This document shows, one piece after another, positions 9,475-62,011 of a stretch of 64,000 nucleotides of DNA. Position numbers and translations under genes: made by a program. Position 1 is the first letter of the stretch. The number at the start of each line of letters is the position of its first letter. Source of the DNA: a virus; the IMG/VR virus record IMGVR_UViG_3300023174_000070, positions 62,001 to 126,000 of that record. The stretch is one strand, 5' to 3'. The notes under the pieces are model-generated. The model was not told the origin of the DNA. It was given only the letters and a program-made list of their open reading frames with translations, and searched no databases.

Positions 9475-10920
9475 TTACGATTGTTTAATCTGCCCCAGCA
9501 GTTGTTTTAATTTAGCACTTTGTACATCTGCAGTGACCTTAGGTGCTTCTAGATCAAAGTCTTCCTTGGGCTTGGCTCGTTCCCAAGGTGGTGTACTAGA
9601 CTCGCCTTCTTCAGTGATTTTAACTTGACTCTTGGCCTTGATTGAATCCATGATGCTGGGTTTGGCACCGCCACGGAAGTTGTCTTTTTCGTCGCCGCCT
9701 TCGTCTGTTATACGCATGGTTTCAATGTTGTACTCCAAATCAATCTTTTGACCAACACCAGTTGAACTCCGTGACTTCATACATTGAATTTGATACTTGC
9801 CACGCTCTTTCATTGCTCTGCTAGTAAAGATGCCAAATACATTATCTGCTGTGTTGATCTTGGAAATGCCACCTGAAATGTGCGAGTGATCAAACTCTAC
9901 TTCTTCAACTGCTGAACGATTCAACTGCGATGCAGTAACCATTAGTACTGCCAACTCTTTGGCCAAGTTGCGGAGTTCTTCACTCACATACTTGTCTTTC
10001 ACAAACAAGTCGTTGGGTGAGACTTTGGCACTCACAGGCATCAGCAGGTCCAAGTAGTCAATCATCACAAAGTCTACCTTCTTGCCTGTTTGAATCTGAT
10101 ACTCTTTCAAATAAGCACGAATATCATTGATGTTGCTCTGTGCCGGCAAGCCTTTCACTTGATAGTTGCCGGACTTTTTGGCCACAAGTTTTACCTTGAG
10201 TTCAGTTGTGTCCATGTCACGTCTAATGTCCTTGGTGCTCATGTTGGTCAACATAGCATCAGTTCGTAAACTTGTGAGTTCTTCACTCAATTCAAGTGTA
10301 ATGTAAACTCCACTAAGTCCTTGTTGCAACCAGTTCAGGGCAATGTTCATCATCACAAGTGACTTACCCGAACCAGATCCGCCTGCAAAGATATTTAGTT
10401 CGCCTCGACTGAACCCACCGTACAACAATCTGTCCAGTTGTGGCCATCCTGTGCTTACTTGTCCGCCCGAGTTAAAGTATTTCTCAATGCGAGCCTTAGG
10501 ATCAGCAAAGTAATCCGTGCCCATGTCTTTAGTAAGTGATATCTGTACTGCATCTTTGATGAGTTTTTCAACGGGTTCAAATTCGCCTTTCTCCAGCAAG
10601 TCTGCTGACTTCAAAATAGCACGTTCAAGTTCTTGACGTCGGGTAAATGCTTCAAACTCACCCATGAACCAGTCAAAGTGGCCTTCGTTCAAGTCCGGCA
10701 CTGTCGCAAGTTTAATGCCTGTGGTCGCAGAGATCTGTGACCTGTCGGGCATGGTCTTGTGTTTGTCTGTGTGTTCTTTGATGAACTCAGCCGCTGGTCT
10801 CAAACTTCGGTCAAAGTTCTGCGGATTGTAAATGTTTTGAACACGCACATAACTTGTGGCGTCTTCCAGCATCATTTCTAGAAATAGTCGTTGGACATCA
10901 AGTCCGTATTCTTTTAACAA
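9475..10920 (-). CDS. 41: Replicative DNA helicase, T4 gp41/DnaB-like
   Basis: The 481-residue protein is a RecA-fold hexameric helicase. It has the Walker A motif GGSGSGKS (180-187) after GGFSRGELNIFA, a Walker B-type strand VDFVMIDYLDLLMP, and the DnaB motif segment MVTASQLNRSAVEEV. It unwinds DNA ahead of the fork and loads the primase encoded at 12768-13763. The apparent start is TTG (10920) with AAGGA about 10 bases upstream; no ATG lies nearby until residue 16. The gene begins 3 bases after the preceding one. Length and motif order match gp41 of T4-like phages. Confidence 0.92.
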   Translation of the reverse strand: MLKEYGLDVQRLFLEMMLEDATSYVRVQNIYNPQNFDRSLRPAAEFIKEHTDKHKTMPDRSQISATTGIKLATVPDLNEGHFDWFMGEFEAFTRRQELERAILKSADLLEKGEFEPVEKLIKDAVQISLTKDMGTDYFADPKARIEKYFNSGGQVSTGWPQLDRLLYGGFSRGELNIFAGGSGSGKSLVMMNIALNWLQQGLSGVYITLELSEELTSLRTDAMLTNMSTKDIRRDMDTTELKVKLVAKKSGNYQVKGLPAQSNINDIRAYLKEYQIQTGKKVDFVMIDYLDLLMPVSAKVSPNDLFVKDKYVSEELRNLAKELAVLMVTASQLNRSAVEEVEFDHSHISGGISKINTADNVFGIFTSRAMKERGKYQIQCMKSRSSTGVGQKIDLEYNIETMRITDEGGDEKDNFRGGAKPSIMDSIKAKSQVKITEEGESSTPPWERAKPKEDFDLEAPKVTADVQSAKLKQLLGQIKQS

Positions 10921-12302: not shown

Positions 12303-12796
12303 AATCCGTAACAATCTCTAGGATGTGCGGCAACCATGTGGTTTCCGTCAACATGTTCAAAAGAATGCAATCGTGTAAATTTAGGGTTGCAGTAGTTCAT
12401 TATTACATCCAGGGAATCAGCAATGCTGTCTGGCAGTGCTATATCAATATCATGCTTGGTTATGGAGTATCGATTAATTCCAACATAGGCAAAGTCCACA
12501 TTGTGAGTTAACTCCTGTATTCTTTCTACCAACTGATTAGTTGATAATCCAGACGTTCTGCTGCCAAACAAAATTACTCCTTGATAATCAATATTGTCTA
12601 TAGTAATATGTTGGTCGCAAATTTTGCGGAAGTTTGTTTGATTGCCTTGCCATAACCATTTAGTATTTGAAAATTGCGTAACAAAATCTAACATAACTTT
12701 TTCTTGTTCAAGAATAGCATCTTTGCTTGCTGACTTAAATCCGCTGAGTTGTTGATCGCGCCAACGATCAATGTCGACTCTGTAGTTTTTTAACAA
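12293..12796 (-). CDS. Protein of unknown function (167 aa)
   Basis: The frame opens with TTG (MLKNYRVDIDRWRDQQL), overlapping the 3' end of the primase gene by 29 bases. The next ATG is more than 30 residues in, and the coding frame is clean from the TTG. Segments such as GVILFGSRTSG and FAYVGINRYSI suggest an alpha/beta fold; ALPDSIADSLDVIMNY is helical. No family can be named. Co-directionality and overlaps place it in the replication operon. Confidence 0.5.
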   Translation of the reverse strand: MLKNYRVDIDRWRDQQLSGFKSASKDAILEQEKVMLDFVTQFSNTKWLWQGNQTNFRKICDQHITIDNIDYQGVILFGSRTSGLSTNQLVERIQELTHNVDFAYVGINRYSITKHDIDIALPDSIADSLDVIMNYCNPKFTRLHSFEHVDGNHMVAAHPRDCYGLCR

Positions 12797-13763
12797 GGTG
12801 TTTCTTCTTTATCTCTATTTTGATTCGGCTAGTTTCTCTTGCGGCCATAATAGTTAGCAAGGCTCCTAGTCGGCCCAACTTTATCACAGCGTCGTTAACG
12901 TCTTTGCACCCTTCTGGCCACTCAGGTATACTCACTGCCCAGCCCAGTTCCACAGCACGATCGATCAGTTCTACACCTGCGACATCTTGATCTGGTACCA
13001 CAGTTACTTCACGACCAAGACTGCGAATTAATCTTGCTTGGCTATCACTAATAGTATTGTGCATGACCGCAAGTCCGCCAATTGAGAGTGCATCAAAGAT
13101 GCCTTCGGTCACCAGTACATGTTGCCAATCTGCATGTTGTAGATCTGTACCAAACACATAGCCCGGTTGTGAGTGATTGATGTACCGGGGCTGTTTGTCA
13201 TCCAAGAATCTAGCAGTCCAGCCTATCACTTTGTTATCATATGTAAACGGAACCAACACAAATGGCCTTGTCCAATGAACCCCATCAGTTTTGATCGATG
13301 TCATTATGGGGAAGTCTTCAGGAACACCGCGGCGGCGTATGTAATCCCAGTATAACACATGCTCAGGTGTGACCACTTCACTGAACGGAGGAAAGTCATC
13401 TGAATCTTCAAATTCAATAGCACTGAGTGTATTGAATGTCTTTTGTCGATCTTCTAGTATGCCGTGAATGCTACGATGTCGCAGACTTTCAAGATTGAGC
13501 ATTTCAATCTCGTTGTCGGGCACACCCATCCACCCTAACAATCTCTTGGCTTTGAAACTCACAGTACGGCCCAGAATAAAACTGGCTGTGTATGAGCAAT
13601 TAAAGCAGTGATAACTCCAACCCGATTCAGTTGCCTTGATACCGCCACGTCCACGTCGGTCTGTGCTGTTGCCATTATGGGTGCAACATACTGCATTGAA
13701 ACTCAGCCAGCCTTGTGGACTGGGTTTTCGTTTTGCAGGCAAATATTGCAGTATATCAAGCAT
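12768..13763 (-). CDS. 61: DNA primase, T4 gp61-like (zinc finger plus TOPRIM)
   Basis: The 331-residue protein has an N-terminal zinc-binding region (C26, C27, H29 and C53, C56 in HCFNCSYT), as in bacterial and phage primases. The central TOPRIM fold shows LVTEGIFDALS (catalytic Glu) and later VVPDQDVAG (the D-x-D pair). The C-terminus is Lys-rich. It synthesises RNA primers for lagging-strand replication together with gp41. Length equals that of typical T4-like primases (about 340). It begins 3 bases after the SGNH hydrolase gene. Confidence 0.92.
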   Translation of the reverse strand: MLDILQYLPAKRKPSPQGWLSFNAVCCTHNGNSTDRRGRGGIKATESGWSYHCFNCSYTASFILGRTVSFKAKRLLGWMGVPDNEIEMLNLESLRHRSIHGILEDRQKTFNTLSAIEFEDSDDFPPFSEVVTPEHVLYWDYIRRRGVPEDFPIMTSIKTDGVHWTRPFVLVPFTYDNKVIGWTARFLDDKQPRYINHSQPGYVFGTDLQHADWQHVLVTEGIFDALSIGGLAVMHNTISDSQARLIRSLGREVTVVPDQDVAGVELIDRAVELGWAVSIPEWPEGCKDVNDAVIKLGRLGALLTIMAARETSRIKIEIKKKHLVKKLQSRH

Positions 13764-13765
13764 TG

Positions 13766-14497
13766 CTACATTGTAGCAGAATCTATGGTAGAAATCAACT
13801 TGTCAGCAATCATTTCATGCCCAATTTCGTTGGGATGGCCGCCTGGGAAAATTAATTCTCGTTTTTGGTTGTTAGGATGATCTCGAAACCACATGGTGGT
13901 TGAAAATTCCGGCCAAATCTCTGTTGGAAGATCCAATTGATTATCAGCCGGCATAATGTGAAACTGCATCATTGGTATGTGTTTTCTAGCAGCCACTCCG
14001 TCAAAGAACAGTAGAGTTTGCATGTGATTGAGTCTGGCCAGTTCTGAACAGTTGGTCAATACCAGTTGCTGTTTGACCATGGTTCTGAATTCCTCTGGCA
14101 CAACACTAGACCCATATTGCACCCAGGTTGAGTGTATGAACTTGTTCCAAGGAGGATCGTTGGCGTAACTGCGATGGTCAGGATTGTAAAAACTCAGTCG
14201 GTCTGAATCAGTATGCCCAATCAAGACCATGCAATCTTCAGGACAGGGTTCGTGTTCCAGCCACCAAAGGAATGTCCAGATTGAACTCTGCATTGACCCG
14301 CCGGCAATTCCAAAATTTTCTATAGGAACGTTGTAGTGTTTGCCTAACAACCCTAAAAAGTTGTGACTGTTTCGATATTGATCGTTTTGGTGCCAGCAAC
14401 TGTGTGCGTCAGCATGCTGTTGAACTAGTGCAGGATCCAGCAACTCGTCTCCGTACATCCAGGAGTCACCAAACCCAACAATTTTTTTAAATGTCAT
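13766..14497 (-). CDS. SGNH/GDSL-family hydrolase (243 aa)
   Basis: The four SGNH blocks are readable: block I IVGFGDSWMYGDEL (nucleophile Ser), block II Gly in NFGIAGGSMQSS, a block III-like LIGHTDSDRL in place of G-x-N-D, and a C-terminal GGHPNEIGHEMIA with the catalytic His. Family members deacylate sugars, lipids or thioesters. The family is frequent in aquatic T4-like phages, where removal of O-acetyl groups from glycans is often proposed. There is no signal peptide, so it is cytosolic or carried on the virion. A second SGNH-like gene sits at 18830-19480. The start overlaps the upstream structural gene by ATGA. Confidence 0.8.
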   Translation of the reverse strand: MTFKKIVGFGDSWMYGDELLDPALVQQHADAHSCWHQNDQYRNSHNFLGLLGKHYNVPIENFGIAGGSMQSSIWTFLWWLEHEPCPEDCMVLIGHTDSDRLSFYNPDHRSYANDPPWNKFIHSTWVQYGSSVVPEEFRTMVKQQLVLTNCSELARLNHMQTLLFFDGVAARKHIPMMQFHIMPADNQLDLPTEIWPEFSTTMWFRDHPNNQKRELIFPGGHPNEIGHEMIADKLISTIDSATM

Positions 14498-15585
14498 CTA
14501 CAAATTATGTCTACCACTGCCCCTGTTGTGATAACAACTGCAGCCGGTACAGTAGGTTGTGCCGGCGAGGGTGTGTAGCCTGAGCCTCCGTTAGTAACAT
14601 TTATGGCACTAACTTGACCGCCAGTAATTTCTGCTTCTGCGGTTGCTCCGGCACCTAGCCCAATGATGGTAACCAAGGGCGGTGCTAGATAACCGTTGCC
14701 CGAATTGGTCACTGTAATTCCGGTGATTACTCCATTGGCAGCCTGAGCATTGGCAGTGGCCGGCCCTACAATTTCTGCTCCTGAATAACTGTTAAGTGCA
14801 AGGCGCAGTAGTGGATGATAACCCAGCACATTGATGTATTCTGTACCTGTTCGATTGTAATATGAAGATATGTTGCTGACATCATACCAGGTGCTTTGAT
14901 AGGTTTCAGCGGCTTGTGCTTTGATATTGCCAGTGTAATGATTCATGTTTAGTTGAAACGTGGTCAGACTGGCACCAATGGTGGGGATAAAACTTGAATA
15001 GCGTTCGGGATTGGGCTGGACATTGCCAACCGGAGGAGGATTTAACGCCCAGTCAGGATAGTTGCCAGCAAACACAGGATTGATGTAGATTTCAGGGCCG
15101 TATATGGTAGGTACTGTCACTGTGTGACTGGGCACAAACTCTGGTAGTACACTATCTTGTATGTCCACATCTGCACGGGCTTGGGCCTGTGCATCCACAA
15201 ATACTGCTTCTGTTAGGTTGCCACTGGTTCTGTCTATGCTGTAACTGGCAGGTTCAGTAGGTAGTTCTGTTGTGTCTGCGGCACTCAGTGTGACTTTGGC
15301 ACGTCCAAACGGTGCGTTCAATATGACCATCTCTTTTTCCAGCAATTGTACATCGCCTTGTAAGTTGATTAGTCTGAATATCAAATTGCTGCCGGTAATG
15401 TTTACAGGCTTTTGATCTTGATTAATGAATTCAAACAAGATCACGTTATCCACGCCCTTGTTGATTGTTAGTTTTTTTGCGTACACTGGTTCCCACCTCC
15501 GAACAAATACCTCACCCACGCCTGTGGTGTCTATTAATAAAATTCTCTGGATCTGTTGATAAATGTAGGCTGTGGTTGAGTACAT
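14494..15585 (-). CDS. Virion fibre or baseplate-associated protein (363 aa)
   Basis: The N-terminal half resembles a baseplate upper-protein/fibre-adaptor domain (KKLTINKGVDNVILFEFINQ, then NLIFRLINLQGDVQLLEKEM), a beta domain used to dock fibres to baseplates. A central Pro-rich region follows. The C-terminus has two copies of a Gly-rich module (ITVTNSGNGYLAPPLVTI and INVTNGGSGYTPSP) frequent in tail-fibre proteins. It is preceded by a late promoter variant at 15595-15602. Attachment to the tail tip is inferred. Confidence 0.7.
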   Translation of the reverse strand: MYSTTAYIYQQIQRILLIDTTGVGEVFVRRWEPVYAKKLTINKGVDNVILFEFINQDQKPVNITGSNLIFRLINLQGDVQLLEKEMVILNAPFGRAKVTLSAADTTELPTEPASYSIDRTSGNLTEAVFVDAQAQARADVDIQDSVLPEFVPSHTVTVPTIYGPEIYINPVFAGNYPDWALNPPPVGNVQPNPERYSSFIPTIGASLTTFQLNMNHYTGNIKAQAAETYQSTWYDVSNISSYYNRTGTEYINVLGYHPLLRLALNSYSGAEIVGPATANAQAANGVITGITVTNSGNGYLAPPLVTIIGLGAGATAEAEITGGQVSAINVTNGGSGYTPSPAQPTVPAAVVITTGAVVDIICR

Positions 15586-15629: not shown

Positions 15630-16016
15630 ATGAAACTTATGGGCAGTGACTTATTTCAAAAAATGGCAGACAAATATCCGTTTATAACCCTGTGCATATA
15701 CGCCAGTAACGAATATGTGGGCATAGTGCAAAATCGTGATGATGCAATTACCACCATCTACGACTTTGGGGCTGTTACAGACCAGGATTCCAAGCGTCAA
15801 TTTATAGATTTGGCCAACACTTGGTGGTGGGAAAGCAATAGAAGCATTCCTATTAACATATTCCTGCGCGGGGAGTGGGATCCGTTTCGCCCCACCTTGA
15901 GAACGTTTGCCAACAAAGATTTGGAAATTCTGCATGGCCCAATATGCAGTTTGAACGACATTGCTCGCAAAAAGAGCAAGCGTAAATCAATTACCCTAGT
16001 TAGACGTGTTGATTAA
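15630..16016 (+). CDS. Conserved T4-like phage protein of unknown function (128 aa)
   Basis: The protein (MKLMGSDLFQKMADKYPFIT) contains ASNEYVGIVQNRDDAITTIY and a distinctive PINIFLRGEWDPFRP segment, and ends basic (ARKKSKRKSITLVRRVD). I recall similar small proteins in marine T4-like phages but no function. It is a single rightward gene within a leftward block, driven by a consensus late promoter, apparently as a leaderless mRNA. Its 3' end overlaps the convergent Pol III-like gene by 21 bases. Confidence 0.75.
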   Translation: MKLMGSDLFQKMADKYPFITLCIYASNEYVGIVQNRDDAITTIYDFGAVTDQDSKRQFIDLANTWWWESNRSIPINIFLRGEWDPFRPTLRTFANKDLEILHGPICSLNDIARKKSKRKSITLVRRVD

Positions 16017-16556
16017 ATTCATGTGTAAAGAAACAAGAGCCGCATAAGAAATACTGTGACTCTTCTTAAAAGTATAACCTTGCGAATCATCCCCGTCCCA
16101 TACTGATGCAAACACCTCTGTCCAGGGGCGTGTTTGTAAATGTGCCTTGCCTGGACGAATAATAGATATAAAAGCAGCCATCCTGGGTATTGAATCTGGT
16201 CGCATGTGTGCCAGCAGATCAGTATAGTTGCCCACGTGTACCAGTTGTCGTGCCCACTCTCGATCAGTCCACAGTCGTTCCCAAGGCGGTGCGGCTGCCA
16301 ACATCGATTCATAGTGTGCAGGATCCTTTATTAAACTGTACACACTCATGTTCAAGAAGTCCAGTTTAAAGTATCCACGCTGTTCGGCAATTTCATAATC
16401 CAGAGATGCACAGCCTGCAAAAGGATCACGCGGTATGTTAGTAACATACACTCCTGAGTTGTGCTTTCGCCCATTGCTTTGTCGTGCCGGGGTATGCTGA
16501 ATTAACTTCAGTATATCTTCACGATTAGCAAAATCTAAATCAATGTCTGCGCTCAT
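15996..16556 (-). CDS. Miniature DNA polymerase III alpha-like protein (186 aa)
   Basis: The sequence follows the bacterial Pol III alpha catalytic core in order but with large deletions. DIDLDF (D6, D8) corresponds to the P-D-x-D-x-DF catalytic pair, RKHNSGVYV (31-38) to the KHAGGVVI segment, and YFKLDFLNM (K64, D66) to VKFDFLGL with the third catalytic Asp. MRPDSIPRMAAFISIIRPG (118-136) matches the LKPDxxEDxxALxALYRPGP finger motif, and FKKSHSISYA (163-171) matches the KSHAxAYA motif. PHP, thumb, clamp-binding and OB domains are absent. It might be a minimal polymerase, a translesion or repair enzyme, or a non-catalytic partner. The T4-type polymerase gp43 is not in this window. It overlaps the downstream gene tail-to-tail. 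Confidence 0.75.
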   Translation of the reverse strand: MSADIDLDFANREDILKLIQHTPARQSNGRKHNSGVYVTNIPRDPFAGCASLDYEIAEQRGYFKLDFLNMSVYSLIKDPAHYESMLAAAPPWERLWTDREWARQLVHVGNYTDLLAHMRPDSIPRMAAFISIIRPGKAHLQTRPWTEVFASVWDGDDSQGYTFKKSHSISYAALVSLHMNLINTSN

Positions 16557-16909
16557 TCTTGCACCAATGCTGCCACAATTCTAACTCGTTCCTGGGCTTG
16601 TTGAACTGCTTCGAGTGCATCTGACACAGCAGGATGTTCTTTGGCCAGGACCTCAAGCCTTTTTTCTTCTTCCATCTGTCGTCGTGCCCAATCAATTGCC
16701 TCTTCAGCCACTCCGTTGAGTCCTACACTGGCATGTGGTGAGTTTAATTCCAACCAGGTCATGCCATCATATACTTCTAGTCGTTGCTGGCTGGTGTTGA
16801 AACGCAAGTTACCAACTCCTTGTGAACCGGCCTGGGCAGTCACATAGGTGCTGGCACTGCCGCCTATTACTTGTATATACTTTCCAATGGTGTGAATTGC
16901 TTTGATCAT
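16553..16909 (-). CDS. Conserved small protein with fibre-like W motif and helical tail (118 aa)
   Basis: The N-terminal half carries a beta module seen in many phage structural proteins (VGNLRFNTSQQRLEVYDGMTW), followed by a long charged helix (AIDWARRQMEEEKRLEVLAK) ending VRIVAALVQE. Homologues are, to my recollection, common in marine T4-like phages without a function. It overlaps the Pol III-like gene by ATGA. The module suggests contact with virion proteins, but its neighbours are replication-type genes, so the role is open. Confidence 0.7.
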   Translation of the reverse strand: MIKAIHTIGKYIQVIGGSASTYVTAQAGSQGVGNLRFNTSQQRLEVYDGMTWLELNSPHASVGLNGVAEEAIDWARRQMEEEKRLEVLAKEHPAVSDALEAVQQAQERVRIVAALVQE

Positions 16910-18826: not shown

Positions 18827-18855
18827 ATTTTATACTATTTGTATAGTATTGTCAA
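18827..18855 (-). promoter_or_regulatory. Sigma70 promoter abutting a start codon
   Basis: TTGACA (18855-18850), 17 bp, TAAAAT (18832-18827), then AAAACC and the ATG at 18820. The expected transcription start coincides with the ATG. Confidence 0.75.
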
Positions 18856-19480
18856 TGGGTTGTTGCAATATTTCTCTGGCCTCCTGGGCAAATCTTTGTT
18901 GCCAACTCAGGTCATCTGTATGAAATCCTGGTGACTGTTTAAACTTAGGGTAGGTGGCCAAATTGGTTGCACACATTCTATGAAAGAATTCTTTCAATAT
19001 ATTGTTAACATCAGGATCTGATGGGTACGGCAAATGATGAAGGTTATTAAAAAGTCCGTTTAGCGTATATGCATAGGGTATACCTTGACTCTCGCAAGTG
19101 AGAAATAACCCTCTTGCTATTACACATGATTTAAATCGATTCATTTGATCATCAGACAGTGCAACATAATAATCTACCGCTAGTTTTTGATCAGATGTTA
19201 AACTTGTGTGCCCGTTGCTTAACCATTTTCTTTTAAAGTTTTTTTGTTGCTCAACAGTTGCTTCAAACTCAATTCTATTGGGTTCAGTGAATCCTAACAC
19301 CACTGCATCAGGGTTGAGTTTTAATCCTTCAAAAAACTGCCAGGCTATCATGCCATTGGTTGAACCTGGTTGAGAAAGCATGATTATTTCATATTCAGGC
19401 AACATTTCACTCCAATGTTGACCAGGAAAATTTGTGTCAGGGTGCATGAAACTGTCACCTACTACTAGCAACTTCTTCAT
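18830..19480 (-). CDS. Second SGNH/GDSL-like hydrolase (216 aa)
   Basis: I start this gene at the ATG at 19480, which overlaps the UvsW stop; the longer frame only extends into uvsW. The sequence has a block I-like LLVVGDSFMHP, a block II-like SQPGSTNGMIAWQ with Gly, a central VVLGFTEPNRIEF at the place of block III, and a C-terminal FHTDDLSWQQRFA bearing His. It is shorter and more diverged than the hydrolase at 13766-14497. No export signal is seen. Substrate is unknown; an esterase on glycans is a reasonable guess given the glycan island. Confidence 0.7.
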   Translation of the reverse strand: MKKLLVVGDSFMHPDTNFPGQHWSEMLPEYEIIMLSQPGSTNGMIAWQFFEGLKLNPDAVVLGFTEPNRIEFEATVEQQKNFKRKWLSNGHTSLTSDQKLAVDYYVALSDDQMNRFKSCVIARGLFLTCESQGIPYAYTLNGLFNNLHHLPYPSDPDVNNILKEFFHRMCATNLATYPKFKQSPGFHTDDLSWQQRFAQEAREILQQPIDNTIQIV

Positions 19481-20946
19481 GCTATCTTCATCCACTCTAG
19501 TTTTTCTTGAGTGAAAGGGTAGTTGGCCTCGCGATAAAAAGTTTTGCGTTTGGTCAGGTGTCGCTTGGCAAACTTGCAGGTGGAAGTAATGTCCCAAATT
19601 TGCACGTGATCTTTGTCTTCTGCTTTTCGAATTCCGCGCCCGATGCTTTGGATAACTCTAACAAAACTTTTGCCAGGTTCAATGAGAACCAAATTAAAAA
19701 TTCGCGGAATGTTAATTCCAACAGCGGCCACACCATACGTGGCCACGATAATTTTGTCTGTTGACTCTGCAACTTCGTCGTATTCATCTTGACGGTCCTT
19801 TGCTTTGGTCGCTCCGGATACAAACACAGCACGATCACCCAGGCGCTCTACTAAGGCATGCCCTGCGGCTACCCTGTCCACAAGCACCAAGGTGTTGCCT
19901 GTTTCGTTTACCCGACGTATAAGGTCGGCCATGGTGTCCAATCGCCCCGACTCTTCCAGCAGGTATTTAAGTTCACTTTGATACTCTTTATACTCCACGT
20001 GATCAACCAGTTGCACAATGTTCACGTGGCATTGAGCCAGTACACCTTGTTGCTGTAACTCATTAGCACTCAAGCGTCCAATAACAGGTCCAAGACTAAC
20101 CAACAACGATTGGCTTTCAAACTTCTCTTTGGGAATAGTTCCGGTCAACCCCCACCGAATTGGCACTCTAGCCATCACACCAGTTAGCAAAGTTTTGAGT
20201 GCATCTGCTTTGGCCATGTGTACTTCGTCTACAATAACACATACCACACCTTCCAAAAACTCGCCAATGGTCACTTTGCCTGTGCCTGCCTTGGTGTTCT
20301 TTAACAGCACATTCAAACTTTGCCAGGTACAAATGGTATGTGTGCGTCCGTATTCTTTTCTATCGCCAAAGAACACACCCACATCTTGCTCCATGTTGAT
20401 GTAGTCTTTTTCTGTTTGCGTCACTAGACTCTTGTTGGGCACAATAACGATACTGCGGCCATATGGTGTGACAGCATTGGACAAGGCCGCTGTCATGATT
20501 GTTTTGCCTGCTCCTGTGGCCACTTCTTGCAGGCATTGCGGATTGGCCAGAAAGTTGTTCACAATCTCAACTTGATAGTCTCTCATGATGATGGGTTCAC
20601 CCACAGCAGGGTGACCTTTAGGCCACATGATGTGTGCAAACGAATCCTCACGCACCTGTTGAAACTCAAATGAGGTAGAGTACTCTCTTTGATCATCTAT
20701 CTCAATGTCGTAATCAAACTTTTCAAGGATGGGAACAATCTCAGGCAGCAAGTTTGTGTATGTACTGCCGCCAAGTTGGAAGTATGCAACCTTACCATCC
20801 CAGCGTCCCAGTCGCACTGCTGGCATGTAACGTGCGGCCGGGTTTTCGTATTTGAAAGCCGTGACCAAGGCCTTGCGAACATCTAGATCTAGTCCTTCTA
20901 GTCGGATGTTTACTTCATCACGGATTTGTATGGTGCATCGTTTCAT
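19477..20946 (-). CDS. uvsW: DNA/RNA helicase UvsW
   Basis: The 489-residue protein is a superfamily 2 helicase close in length to T4 UvsW (about 500). An N-terminal ~100-residue substrate-binding domain (KAAR-like RLGRWDGKVAYFQ) precedes the motor. Motif I is ATGAGKT (143-149), motif II is DEVH, motif III LTGT, and motif VI-like QSIGRGIRKA is present. UvsW rewinds and remodels D-loops, R-loops and forks, and promotes the switch from origin to recombination-dependent replication. It overlaps its upstream neighbour by 29 bases and the SGNH gene by 4. Confidence 0.93.
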   Translation of the reverse strand: MKRCTIQIRDEVNIRLEGLDLDVRKALVTAFKYENPAARYMPAVRLGRWDGKVAYFQLGGSTYTNLLPEIVPILEKFDYDIEIDDQREYSTSFEFQQVREDSFAHIMWPKGHPAVGEPIIMRDYQVEIVNNFLANPQCLQEVATGAGKTIMTAALSNAVTPYGRSIVIVPNKSLVTQTEKDYINMEQDVGVFFGDRKEYGRTHTICTWQSLNVLLKNTKAGTGKVTIGEFLEGVVCVIVDEVHMAKADALKTLLTGVMARVPIRWGLTGTIPKEKFESQSLLVSLGPVIGRLSANELQQQGVLAQCHVNIVQLVDHVEYKEYQSELKYLLEESGRLDTMADLIRRVNETGNTLVLVDRVAAGHALVERLGDRAVFVSGATKAKDRQDEYDEVAESTDKIIVATYGVAAVGINIPRIFNLVLIEPGKSFVRVIQSIGRGIRKAEDKDHVQIWDITSTCKFAKRHLTKRKTFYREANYPFTQEKLEWMKIA

Positions 20947-37405: not shown

Positions 37406-37674
37406 TAATTTTCCCAGTCTTCGTCCTCGTTGTAATCCTCGTCTTCGACATCTTCTTCTTCCTCGTCTTCAACATAGTCTTTGTCATTGTCAAGATATGC
37501 GGTCAGCGCACGTTTGATGTCTGAATCACCTTTGAAGGCCGCACGAATGTCTTCCACGTCACTATCATTGTCCATCAAGATCTGTATCACAGTTTCAGCG
37601 GCTTCAGCACGGTCCACTGTGTTTACAAAACGCTTGAGTTCTCCCCAAATTTCACTTGCTATTGTTTCACTCAT
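37405..37674 (-). CDS. Small acidic protein beside uvsX (89 aa)
   Basis: The N-terminal ~65 residues are helical (SEIWGELKRFVNTVDRAEAA, then DVEDIRAAFKGDSDIKRALT). The last 25 are almost solely Asp/Glu. Such an acidic tail mimics DNA and could bind UvsX, UvsY or gp32. The gene overlaps uvsX by 8 bases and the radical-SAM gene by one, so it is co-translated with recombination proteins. I recall a similar small gene beside uvsX in cyanophages, but no function. Confidence 0.7.
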   Translation of the reverse strand: MSETIASEIWGELKRFVNTVDRAEAAETVIQILMDNDSDVEDIRAAFKGDSDIKRALTAYLDNDKDYVEDEEEEDVEDEDYNEDEDWEN

Positions 37675-38725
37675 CCGCTGTTTCCTCCGGAGTACTTACC
37701 TCTGCCTTCTGATTTCCAAAGTCTGCCATGACCTTGTCCAGGCATGAATCATCGTTCTTTTCCCATGCCTTACGAAACTTCTTGATAATCTCTCCATCAC
37801 TTGTGGTAAACACCAGACTGTTACCTTCACGCTTGAGCATTTCTTTCTTTTCAATCAAGTCAACTAAACCAGAATACGGACTCATACCTGTTGTATAAGG
37901 AATCTTGACCTGCACACCTTCAAAGGGTTTGGCATAGCGTGTTTTCATAACTTTACACCCGGCACGGATACCGTTTACTTCAGATACTTTGTTGCCATCT
38001 TCATCTTCTTTGAGTTTCATCTTTTTCATGGCAACCACAATACTTGATGCATAGATAAAGCCTTGACCGCCGGAGATCTTGTCATCTGGGTCAAACATGT
38101 CTTGACTTGCGTAGGTGTGGTTGGTACAAACCAGACCCACGTTGTAACTACCAAACATGTTCACACAGTTACGAACCAATGCTGTGAGTGCTTTGGGTTT
38201 GCGACCCAAGTCACCTTTCATTTCACCTGCGTCAAACTGGTTAACGTCTGTAGGCGTCAACAACATGCCCAGTGAGTCAATTACAAACATAACTTTAGGA
38301 CGCTCGCCTTCGGCTAGTGCTTTGTAGTCGCTCATGAATGTGCTAATTGTTTTGGCCACATCGTCGATCATGGCCATGCTCAACTTGAGCAATTTGCTTT
38401 CACTGGTATCGACTCCTAGTGCTTTAAGCCAATCTTCATCAAGAGCATTTTCACTGTCAATCAGTACCACAAAGATGCCTTGCTCTTGTGCGTTTTTCAC
38501 AATGTTACCCGAACAGATGTAACTTTTGCCTGCACCAGAATCACCAGCAAACACAGTGACCTTGCCCAGTGGAATACCACGATTGAAGTCTCCGCTGATC
38601 AAATAGTTTAAGGCATAATTGCCTGTTGAGATCCAGTCTGTTGGATCGTTGAAGCCAATCGAAAGGCCGTCAATACTTTTTGTAATTTCCTTACGGAACT
38701 TACTTACGTCAAATGGTTTTCCCAT
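37667..38725 (-). CDS. uvsX: Recombinase UvsX (RecA-like)
   Basis: At 352 residues it has the UvsX/RecA layout: Walker A GDSGAGKS (61-68), VLIDSENALDEDWL (the Glu-containing strand), VMFVIDSLGML (Walker B), loop L1/L2-type regions GEMKGDLGRKPKAL and SGGQGFIYASSIVVA, then a C-terminal acidic tail. It catalyses strand exchange in recombination-dependent replication and repair. It lies just after gp32's terminator, with a possible promoter overlapping it. No clear Shine-Dalgarno (only AGG) precedes its ATG. Confidence 0.95.
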   Translation of the reverse strand: MGKPFDVSKFRKEITKSIDGLSIGFNDPTDWISTGNYALNYLISGDFNRGIPLGKVTVFAGDSGAGKSYICSGNIVKNAQEQGIFVVLIDSENALDEDWLKALGVDTSESKLLKLSMAMIDDVAKTISTFMSDYKALAEGERPKVMFVIDSLGMLLTPTDVNQFDAGEMKGDLGRKPKALTALVRNCVNMFGSYNVGLVCTNHTYASQDMFDPDDKISGGQGFIYASSIVVAMKKMKLKEDEDGNKVSEVNGIRAGCKVMKTRYAKPFEGVQVKIPYTTGMSPYSGLVDLIEKKEMLKREGNSLVFTTSDGEIIKKFRKAWEKNDDSCLDKVMADFGNQKAEVSTPEETADE

Positions 38726-38735
38726 GATTTACCTA

Positions 38736-38764
38736 TGTATAGAAAGAAAAACACACAGAGACAA
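38736..38764 (-). promoter_or_regulatory. Possible sigma70 promoter of uvsX embedded in the gp32 terminator
   Basis: TTGTCT (38764-38759), 17 bp, TATACA (38741-38736), 10 bp, ATG. Four and five of six bases match consensus. The -35 lies in the terminator loop. Confidence 0.45.
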
Positions 38765-38775
38765 GCCCTGTGTGT
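38742..38775 (-). terminator. Rho-independent terminator after gene 32
   Basis: An 8-bp stem (ACACACAG/CTGTGTGT) is followed by TTTTTCTTTC on the minus strand, 10 bases past the gp32 stop. Confidence 0.85.
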
Positions 38776-38784
38776 GATGCTAGA

Positions 38785-39780
38785 TTACTTTTGTTGTCTA
38801 GCACGAATCATGGCCAAAATGTCTTCGGCCTTTTGTCCACCGCCTGCAGGTTTTGCCACAGGTGCAGTTGGTGCTGGTGCGTCATCTTCATCAAAGTCGC
38901 TGACCGGGGCCGCCACTTTGAGTGCTGGCTTCGCCGCCGGGGCAGGTGTGTCCTCATCTGCCGCAGGTGCCGGAGCGGATCCACCAGCAGGTGCTTGCAC
39001 ACCTGCAGGACGGAAATATTGACCCCAACGCTCTGTGTCGTATGGCTGACCATCAACTGATGCTTCAAACATCTCTTTGATCACTTTCAACTCAACATCA
39101 GAGGGCTTCTTGGGCAAGAATGTGCTCAAGTCAAATAAACCGTATTGATCCACAGCCGCTTGTTCCACTTCTGTGAGTGCTGACTCTTTACGTGCCCACT
39201 TTGATCCATTGTAGTCAGCAAATCCTCCCTTGGCACCTTTGCTAACACGGAAGTCTAGACCACGTACATAGTCTGTTGGCAATTCTTCCAACTCAGGATC
39301 CATCAAGGCTCCTTTGATAGTTGTGAAGATTTGTGGACCAATGATGAATCGGCGAATTGGATTCTCAGGTGACTTGTCATCGCTCAAGGGATTCTCACGC
39401 ACAAAGCCTTGGAAAATGTAACTGCGTTTCTTCCAGTACTTACGACCCATGTCTTCAAGGCTTTTGTCCTTGAACCATGTGCGAACTTCTGCCAGGATTG
39501 GGCAGGCTTCGTTCCACATTTCCACGCAAGGTACTTGTACCATAACTTGCTTGGAGTCCATCTCTCCTTTGATGCCGTTGAATGGCAAACGAATCATTGC
39601 CCGTTCTTGCCAAAAGAAAGTGTTTTTAGAGTTACCATCAGGTAGGAAGCGTAGTGTAGCCGATTGGCCTTCTTCCATGTTCCAGTGCGGGTAAATTGAA
39701 TTATCACCGCGCTCGGTGGATTGCCCACCTTTGTTCTCTGCTGCCTGTAGTCTTGCTCTGATTTCTGATAATGATGCCAT
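38785..39780 (-). CDS. 32: Single-stranded DNA-binding protein gp32
   Basis: The 331-residue protein has an N-terminal cooperativity region (MASLSEIRARLQAAENKGGQ), the OB-fold core with aromatic residues (FWQERAMIRLPFNGIKG, PIRRFIIGPQIFTTI), and an acidic, Pro/Ala-rich C-terminal interaction tail ending EDILAMIRARQQK. A zinc ligand set is not obvious, as in other non-coliphage gp32 proteins. It coats ssDNA and contacts UvsY, primase and polymerase. It has an AGGAG ribosome site, its own promoter and terminator, and a repeat-rich leader that may autoregulate translation. Confidence 0.9.
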   Translation of the reverse strand: MASLSEIRARLQAAENKGGQSTERGDNSIYPHWNMEEGQSATLRFLPDGNSKNTFFWQERAMIRLPFNGIKGEMDSKQVMVQVPCVEMWNEACPILAEVRTWFKDKSLEDMGRKYWKKRSYIFQGFVRENPLSDDKSPENPIRRFIIGPQIFTTIKGALMDPELEELPTDYVRGLDFRVSKGAKGGFADYNGSKWARKESALTEVEQAAVDQYGLFDLSTFLPKKPSDVELKVIKEMFEASVDGQPYDTERWGQYFRPAGVQAPAGGSAPAPAADEDTPAPAAKPALKVAAPVSDFDEDDAPAPTAPVAKPAGGGQKAEDILAMIRARQQK

Positions 39781-60637: not shown

Positions 60638-62011
60638 ATGCCAAGACTTTCACTTTATAGGCCCAACCGGACAGCCGACTATCAATTTTTCGATCGCACT
60701 ATTGCAGAAATGTACCAGGTGGGCGGCGTCGATTGTTATTTGCACAAATACATGGGCCCGTTGACCAATGACAACGAGGGTGACAATGATGCCACCCTAC
60801 CCAAGTACACAGAATCCAACCCGCTGTTTATTGAAGACCTGCTGTTGTTGGAAAATCGAGACCGCAAATACGATCCTGACATATATGTCATGCGTGGTGT
60901 GTATCAAACACAAGACATTGACTTTGACCTAACACAATTTGGTCTGTTCCTAAACAACGATACCCTGTTTATCACATTCCACTACAATCGCATGATCGAC
61001 ACTATGGGTCGCAAACTCATGAGTGGCGATGTGTTGGAACTGCCCAATCTGCGTGACTACAATCCACTCAACGAAACCATTCCCAGAGCATTGCCAAGAT
61101 TCTATGTGATACAAGACGCGGCATTTGCGTCAGAAGGTTTCAGTCAAACTTGGTTGCCTCACTTGTGGCGAGTAAAATGCACGCCCATGGTCAACGCTCA
61201 AGAATTTAACGAGATTACCAAGGAACCGTTTGAACCCATTAACATTTGGGATCCAGGTAATTTTTATCCAGGTGGTACCACTGTGCTCTACGGCGACAAA
61301 TATTATATCAGCACTAAAAATGTGCCGCCCGGCACGGATATCACCAATACACAATACTGGCAAGAAAAATCAAACCCTGCTACACTAGCAGACAAGATGA
61401 GTACTAGACCCAAGGACTTGGAAATCAACGATGCTATTTTGATCCAGGCCGAAGCCGAAATACCCAAGTCTGGTTTTGATGTTGTGAAATTTTACATTGT
61501 GGCCACCAACTCAGATGGCACACCTGCTAATCCTACATCAGCCACATACACAGCAGACTACACTCTAAGCGATGCATCAAGAACAGTGGCCAACGATGGC
61601 AACTCACCGCGGAGCGATGGTTACACAGCAGGTTATCTCACAGGCGATGGCAAAACTCCCAATGGTTTGCCTGTCACCGCAGGAGTAAACTTCCCCCCAA
61701 CTCCTATTGCCGGACAGTATGCGCTACGTTTGGACTACTTTCCCAACCGATTGTTCCGATATAATGGCAGATCATGGGTCAAGATTGAAAGCGACGTGCG
61801 CACTCAACTCACACCTGGTGCCACCAACAATACTTTACGGTCCAGTTTCGTTAACAATACATACACTACGCCAACTTCAGACATGGGCAACATTCCAAGT
61901 CGTCAAAGTTTGAGCCAGGCGTTACAACCCAATTTGAGCAACGGCGATGACGGGGGTAATAAAGATCCCAATCCGTATCCGCCAACACAACCGTATCAAC
62001 CATCCAGTTAA
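60638..62011 (+). CDS. 14: Neck protein gp14, with insertions (457 aa)
   Basis: The N-terminus (MPRLSLYRPNRTADYQFFDR, MYQVGGVDCYLHKYMG) and the segment MRGVYQTQDIDFDLTQFGLF-TFHYNRMIDTMGRKLMSGDV-LELPNLRDYNPL match T4-like gp14. T4 gp14 is 256 residues; this one is 457, with extra Gly/Thr-rich modules (KYYISTKNVPPGTDITNTQY, QYALRLDYFPNRLFRYNGRS-W) in the C-terminal half. It joins gp13 to the tail. It leads a late operon with gp15 and a Nudix gene. Confidence 0.85.
   Translation: MPRLSLYRPNRTADYQFFDRTIAEMYQVGGVDCYLHKYMGPLTNDNEGDNDATLPKYTESNPLFIEDLLLLENRDRKYDPDIYVMRGVYQTQDIDFDLTQFGLFLNNDTLFITFHYNRMIDTMGRKLMSGDVLELPNLRDYNPLNETIPRALPRFYVIQDAAFASEGFSQTWLPHLWRVKCTPMVNAQEFNEITKEPFEPINIWDPGNFYPGGTTVLYGDKYYISTKNVPPGTDITNTQYWQEKSNPATLADKMSTRPKDLEINDAILIQAEAEIPKSGFDVVKFYIVATNSDGTPANPTSATYTADYTLSDASRTVANDGNSPRSDGYTAGYLTGDGKTPNGLPVTAGVNFPPTPIAGQYALRLDYFPNRLFRYNGRSWVKIESDVRTQLTPGATNNTLRSSFVNNTYTTPTSDMGNIPSRQSLSQALQPNLSNGDDGGNKDPNPYPPTQPYQPSS

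Follow-up and report, generated by a model that had tools for sequence, protein, structure and literature searches.

The window analysed here, a stretch of 64,000 nucleotides from a virus (positions 62,001 to 126,000 of IMG/VR record IMGVR_UViG_3300023174_000070), belongs to a 130-kb fragment, G000. On its minus strand lies an open reading frame (ORF) for a 186-amino acid (aa) protein that we identify, from its match to phrog_11778, profile–profile comparison with DnaE and the fold matches of its AlphaFold2 model, as the C-unit of a split minimal DNA polymerase III (Pol III) alpha. The other half, here called the N-unit, is a second small protein (~175 aa) that carries the GRGS motif. The gene and the motifs placed on it by alignment and conservation, with residue numbers of Escherichia coli DnaE for comparison, are:

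15996..16556, minus strand: C-unit of split minimal Pol III alpha, 186 aa
16533..16547, minus strand: metal-binding strand D4-I-D6-L-D8 (D4 = D401, D6 = D403, D8 = D405), invariant among the homologues and aligned to DnaE 'MPDIDIDF'
16452..16463, minus strand: H32-x-x-G35 (H511/G514)
16353..16367, minus strand: K64-x-D66-x-L68 (K553/D555/L557), with D66 the third metal ligand
16146..16199, minus strand: fingers segment P120..R134-P135-x-K137, its RP corresponding to R639/P640
16044..16067, minus strand: O-helix motif KKSHSISY, with H167 the steric gate (H760) and Y171 = Y764

In a PHROGs search, residues 3–183 of the C-unit match phrog_11778 with E 2e-48. This is a full-length match, and the label 'DNA polymerase' is an annotation that gives no hint of an enzyme in two halves; further PHROGs matches are weak and local, to full-size DNA polymerase families. 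The family is widespread, with 90 annotated phage records recovered by tblastn (each below 60% identity, at least 80% query coverage) and relatives in at least 447 viral contigs in a viral-contig scan. Single-sequence searches gave no significant match in Pfam and nothing in the PDB except an insignificant match to a restriction enzyme, and the 186-aa chain has no Pfam match to PHP, thumb or tandem HhH domains.

The C-unit shares ancestry with the Pol III alpha of bacteria (DnaE). For the comparisons we used 12 diverse C-unit homologues, a larger alignment of 46 C-unit sequences and a set of nine DnaE proteins (E. coli, phage and metagenomic). The profile of the 12 homologues matches DnaE structures collinearly in a PDB profile search (best E 0.0076), and eight of the 12 have a match to PF17657, the family of the Pol III fingers (best 3e-5). 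An earlier sequence-only reading of this ORF had named profile–profile comparison with Pol III alpha and structure prediction as checks, and both agree with it. Against the nine DnaE proteins, hhalign gives E-values of 1.3e-8 and 2e-8, which apply to one comparison and not to a database search; reversed and 20 column-shuffled alignments reach at best E 0.033, with a probability of 1.5%. The AlphaFold2 model built from the 46 sequences is confident (predicted local distance difference test, pLDDT, 91.6; predicted template modelling score, pTM, 0.83), and the first 12 matches in a PDB fold search are all Pol III alpha (best E 1.6e-3, probability 1.0). The template modelling scores (TM-scores) of these matches, 0.33–0.45 by query length, are modest, as expected for half a domain.

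The five Pol III alpha motifs reported by the sequence-only reading are indeed present in the correct order on the minus-strand ORF: DIDLDF (residues 4–9), KHNSGV (31–36), KLDFL (64–68), PDSIPRMAAFISIIRPG (120–136) and KKSHSISYA (164–172). Twelve residues invariant in the DnaE set (E. coli D401, D403, D405, H511, G514, K553, D555, L557, R639, P640, H760 and Y764) have counterparts in the C-unit (D4, D6, D8, H32, G35, K64, D66, L68, R134, P135, H167 and Y171). All 12 counterparts are invariant in the smaller C-unit alignment, and in the 46 sequences the sole departure is one Phe at Y171. The metal ligands of DnaE are D401, D403 and D555, and D405 is kept in DnaE and replaced by Asn in PolC (PMC3919608). 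All three metal-binding aspartates are therefore on the C-unit chain, as had been claimed, but they are D4, D6 and D66 rather than D6, D8 and D66; D8 is the additional, DnaE-specific aspartate, which points to the DnaE side of the family. A loss of these aspartates among homologues, named earlier as an outcome that would speak against a catalytic role, is not seen: D4, D6, D8 and D66 are invariant in both alignments. H760, the counterpart of H167, is the proposed steric gate and touches the sugar of the deoxynucleoside triphosphate (dNTP) (PMC8485763).

The linkers are as strongly shortened as first described. Compared with E. coli DnaE, D8–H32 spans 24 versus 106 residues, H32–K64 32 versus 42, D66–R134 68 versus 84 and R134–H167 33 versus 121; the first of these losses corresponds to the thumb and the last to much of the fingers. 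Of the DnaE features, the PHP domain, the GRGS motif, the thumb, most of the fingers, HhH, OB and the clamp-binding region are not on this chain. Its first residues form the DxD strand, and the GRGS motif, which binds the nucleotide, has to be sought elsewhere.

That motif is found on the separately encoded N-unit, so the suggestion of a free-standing C-family palm does not hold: the C-unit is the C-terminal half. The N-unit family occurs in 88 phage records, from the same phage groups as the C-unit, and includes the 172-aa protein CBB_328, whose C-terminal end is GLGRGSSVSSYCLYLIGLHLVDSIKYELDVNEFLKW. All nine aligned N-units match PF07733; their profile matches residues 285–392 of E. coli DnaE in a PDB profile search (E 7.5e-7) and the DnaE profile in profile–profile comparison (E 2.9e-9, controls negative). 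The AlphaFold2 model of the N-unit has a pLDDT of 92.4, and its first 17 PDB fold matches are DnaE or PolC, individually weaker than those of the C-unit (best E 0.035). The GRGS block is the best-conserved stretch of the protein (entropy 0.39 bit), and DnaE spacing is kept, with 34 residues for both E111–R145 and its DnaE counterpart E328–R362, and 29 for both R145–F174 and its DnaE counterpart R362–F391. N-units end at, or a few residues beyond, an EFL aligned with E. coli DnaE residues 390–392, and C-units begin at about residue 398; hence the palm is cut at the same place throughout. A fused form was looked for, and the sole ORF matching both profiles, from a fecal contig (L093), encodes a DnaE of bacterial type with 959 aa. 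The upstream neighbor of the C-unit gene (16553–16909) was considered as GRGS donor and rejected, as it matches mostly unknown-function and virion-type profiles and not Pol III.

The two halves usually occur together. Exactly one N-unit and one C-unit are present in each of the ten cultured phages tested, and both occur in eight of the nine viral records longer than 250 kb. Among these ten is Alishewanella phage Slicko01, with a circular genome of 141 kb. The DNA polymerase of family B (PolB) of Slicko01 is itself split, over two adjacent ORFs (L100:2491-5129; 567 and 311 aa, each with a match to DNA_pol_B), making this a phage with a split PolB plus a split Pol III alpha.

The C-unit gene stands in a replication context, together with the following genes of the window:

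15630..16016, plus strand: convergent gene of phrog_11637 (unknown function), overlapping the 3' end of the C-unit gene
12768..13763, minus strand: DNA primase (Toprim), in the same order in phages GAP32, Phosso and Paride
9475..10920, minus strand: DnaB-like replicative helicase (phrog_19, E 7e-71)
19477..20946, minus strand: UvsW-type helicase (phrog_16, E 6e-74; UvsW_N)
37667..39780, minus strand: UvsX-like recombinase (37667–38725) and gp32-like single-stranded DNA-binding protein (38785–39780), a T4-type replication context

UvsW, primase and DnaB-type helicase genes lie near the C-unit gene in the window, GAP32, Phosso and Paride, and the clamp loader is a few genes from the N-unit in CBB, Atu_ph07, Paride, SCTP-2 and XacN1. 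The convergent phrog_11637 gene is homologous and convergent in eight of nine cultured phages (the exception is Slicko01), a convergent ORF meets the C-unit gene at 145 of 166 viral loci, and 83 phage records, from the groups that have the C-unit, contain phrog_11637. Its protein, which has a basic, KRIKRR-like tail, might act as a third partner or as a regulator. Between the C-unit and primase genes, 14494–15585 (minus strand) encodes a structural-type protein that shares its C-terminal part with numerous profiles of the baseplate, tail and virion kind; GAP32 and Phosso, too, have a virion structural gene annotated at the matching position. The ORF at 18830–19597 (minus strand), which begins with TTG, shares 121 bases with that of the UvsW helicase in a different frame; the true start of the former is probably internal.

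Taken together, these observations make it probable that the C-unit forms the C-terminal part of a minimal polymerase of family C, the catalytic core of which is divided between two proteins that rebuild one palm and extend primers. The N-unit, encoded elsewhere and usually near the clamp loader, would hold the dNTP triphosphate with its GRGS helix, and the C-unit would supply the three metal-binding aspartates, the RP fingers segment and the O-helix with the steric gate. Most likely the two chains bind each other, rebuild one palm of the pol-beta type and add nucleotides to a primer. Lacking thumb, PHP, HhH and clamp-binding domains, such an enzyme should be distributive. The phage replisome probably brings it in to work beside the family B polymerase; since it has no thumb, primer extension, gap filling or repair would be likelier tasks for it than bulk replication. 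The more specific version, an active thumb-less family C polymerase with its active site on two gene products, working beside a family B replicase and perhaps with the phrog_11637 protein as third partner, is put forward tentatively, at slightly less than an even chance.

Several observations weigh against the two-protein polymerase. The thumb is gone, as is a fingers stretch at about E. coli G682–K715 that includes R709 and K715, both invariant in the DnaE set; K137 of the C-unit, which is invariant except for a single Arg, may take the place of the lost basic fingers residues. DnaE R390 and P360 are not kept in the N-unit. The pairing is also imperfect, with a 359-kb record (G012) that has an N-unit and no detected C-unit, and a 216-kb record (G028) that has a C-unit and no detected N-unit. 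Finally, in the 130-kb fragment G000 itself no N-unit was found with a single protein, PF07733, alignment profiles or a GRGS pattern. Neither was PolB found in G000 or in its 142.9-kb relative G001, both of them fragments, nor was PolA. G000 is, however, collinear with G001 and with ~113–255 kb of a 364-kb record, G025. In the closely related G001, about 96 kb separate the C-unit from the N-unit, which lies at 124.9 kb in a stretch that G000 does not cover; in G025 the N-unit (83.8 kb) and PolB (41.9 kb) are both outside the part covered by G000. Because these relatives carry the genes beyond the covered part, the likeliest reason for the absences in G000 is that this contig covers a jumbo phage genome incompletely. 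The missing PolB and PolA had at first pointed to the split enzyme as the only polymerase of a ~150-kb phage, a reading rejected in view of the collinearity of both fragments with parts of G025 and the position of its PolB.

The same losses raise the question of whether the N-unit/C-unit complex is a polymerase at all. With the thumb, most of the fingers and the DNA-binding domains gone, little is left beyond a nucleotidyltransferase core, and the phages that carry it already own a family B polymerase; the complex might then perform some other nucleotidyl transfer, for example to DNA ends or to protein, or sense nucleotides or primer ends. We consider this unlikely, as an invariant steric-gate histidine and RP fingers segment suit templated use of dNTPs and the genes are found among those for primase, helicase and clamp loader. 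As a DnaE fragment without a nucleotide-binding half of its own, the C-unit might instead be a non-catalytic mimic or inhibitor that competes with host Pol III alpha for its DNA or partners. It would be surprising, in that case, for metal ligands that a decoy does not need to be invariant in 46 homologues, for an N-unit just as conserved, its GRGS intact, to co-occur, and for the sequence to be so far from bacterial DnaE, and we regard such a role as improbable. No more credible is the C-unit alone as a complete catalytic palm: the three metal aspartates are all on this chain, but a palm of the pol-beta type requires the helix of the GS motif, which is located on the N-unit, and the fixed cut and the presence of both genes in all ten cultured phages speak for a pair. 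Chance motifs in a spurious ORF, a thought encouraged by the empty single-sequence searches of Pfam and PDB, can be dismissed in view of hundreds of homologues with fixed synteny and profile and fold matches that the negative controls do not reproduce.

If active, the two-protein polymerase would be among the smallest of family C, with an active site shared between two chains, and would show how much the core of the bacterial replicase can lose. It would also raise the question of why a second polymerase is retained in phages that have a T4-like replicase of family B. Iyer et al. (2021; PMC7824862) describe, in group 2.2 jumbo phages such as Atu_ph07, a minimal Pol III alpha that is split and accompanied by PolB, predict that its units join to form an active enzyme, and propose that such minimal forms resemble the ancestors of Pol III, an idea that an active pair would allow to be tested directly. 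No accession for either unit was found in their text, and the identity with our C- and N-units is judged from the fit of the description and from the shared phage group. The window phage is an uncultured relative of theirs and its C-unit a new member of the system. A small C-family polymerase beside gp43 had been expected to be exceptional; relatives do have a family B polymerase beside the C-unit, and within its group the combination is not exceptional. The literature searched yielded no experimental study of the split enzyme.

What is added here is the window member, the corrected residue map, the exact split point, the pair in a sub-jumbo phage and the conserved convergent gene. The sub-jumbo phage is Slicko01, whose 141 kb fall below the 180-kb jumbo cut-off given in PMC7824862. 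CBB_328 and Atu_ph07 gp316 had been noted earlier as Pol III alpha subunits, CBB_328 as a truncated one (PMC5259590, PMC6102473), and two halves of one enzyme are not described in the portions of these papers available. Both belong to the N-unit family, the GRGS half and not the aspartate half. The C-unit of Atu_ph07 is gp074 (L085:8305-8799), the annotated start of which is internal; homology, including the DxD motif, extends ~22 or more codons upstream.
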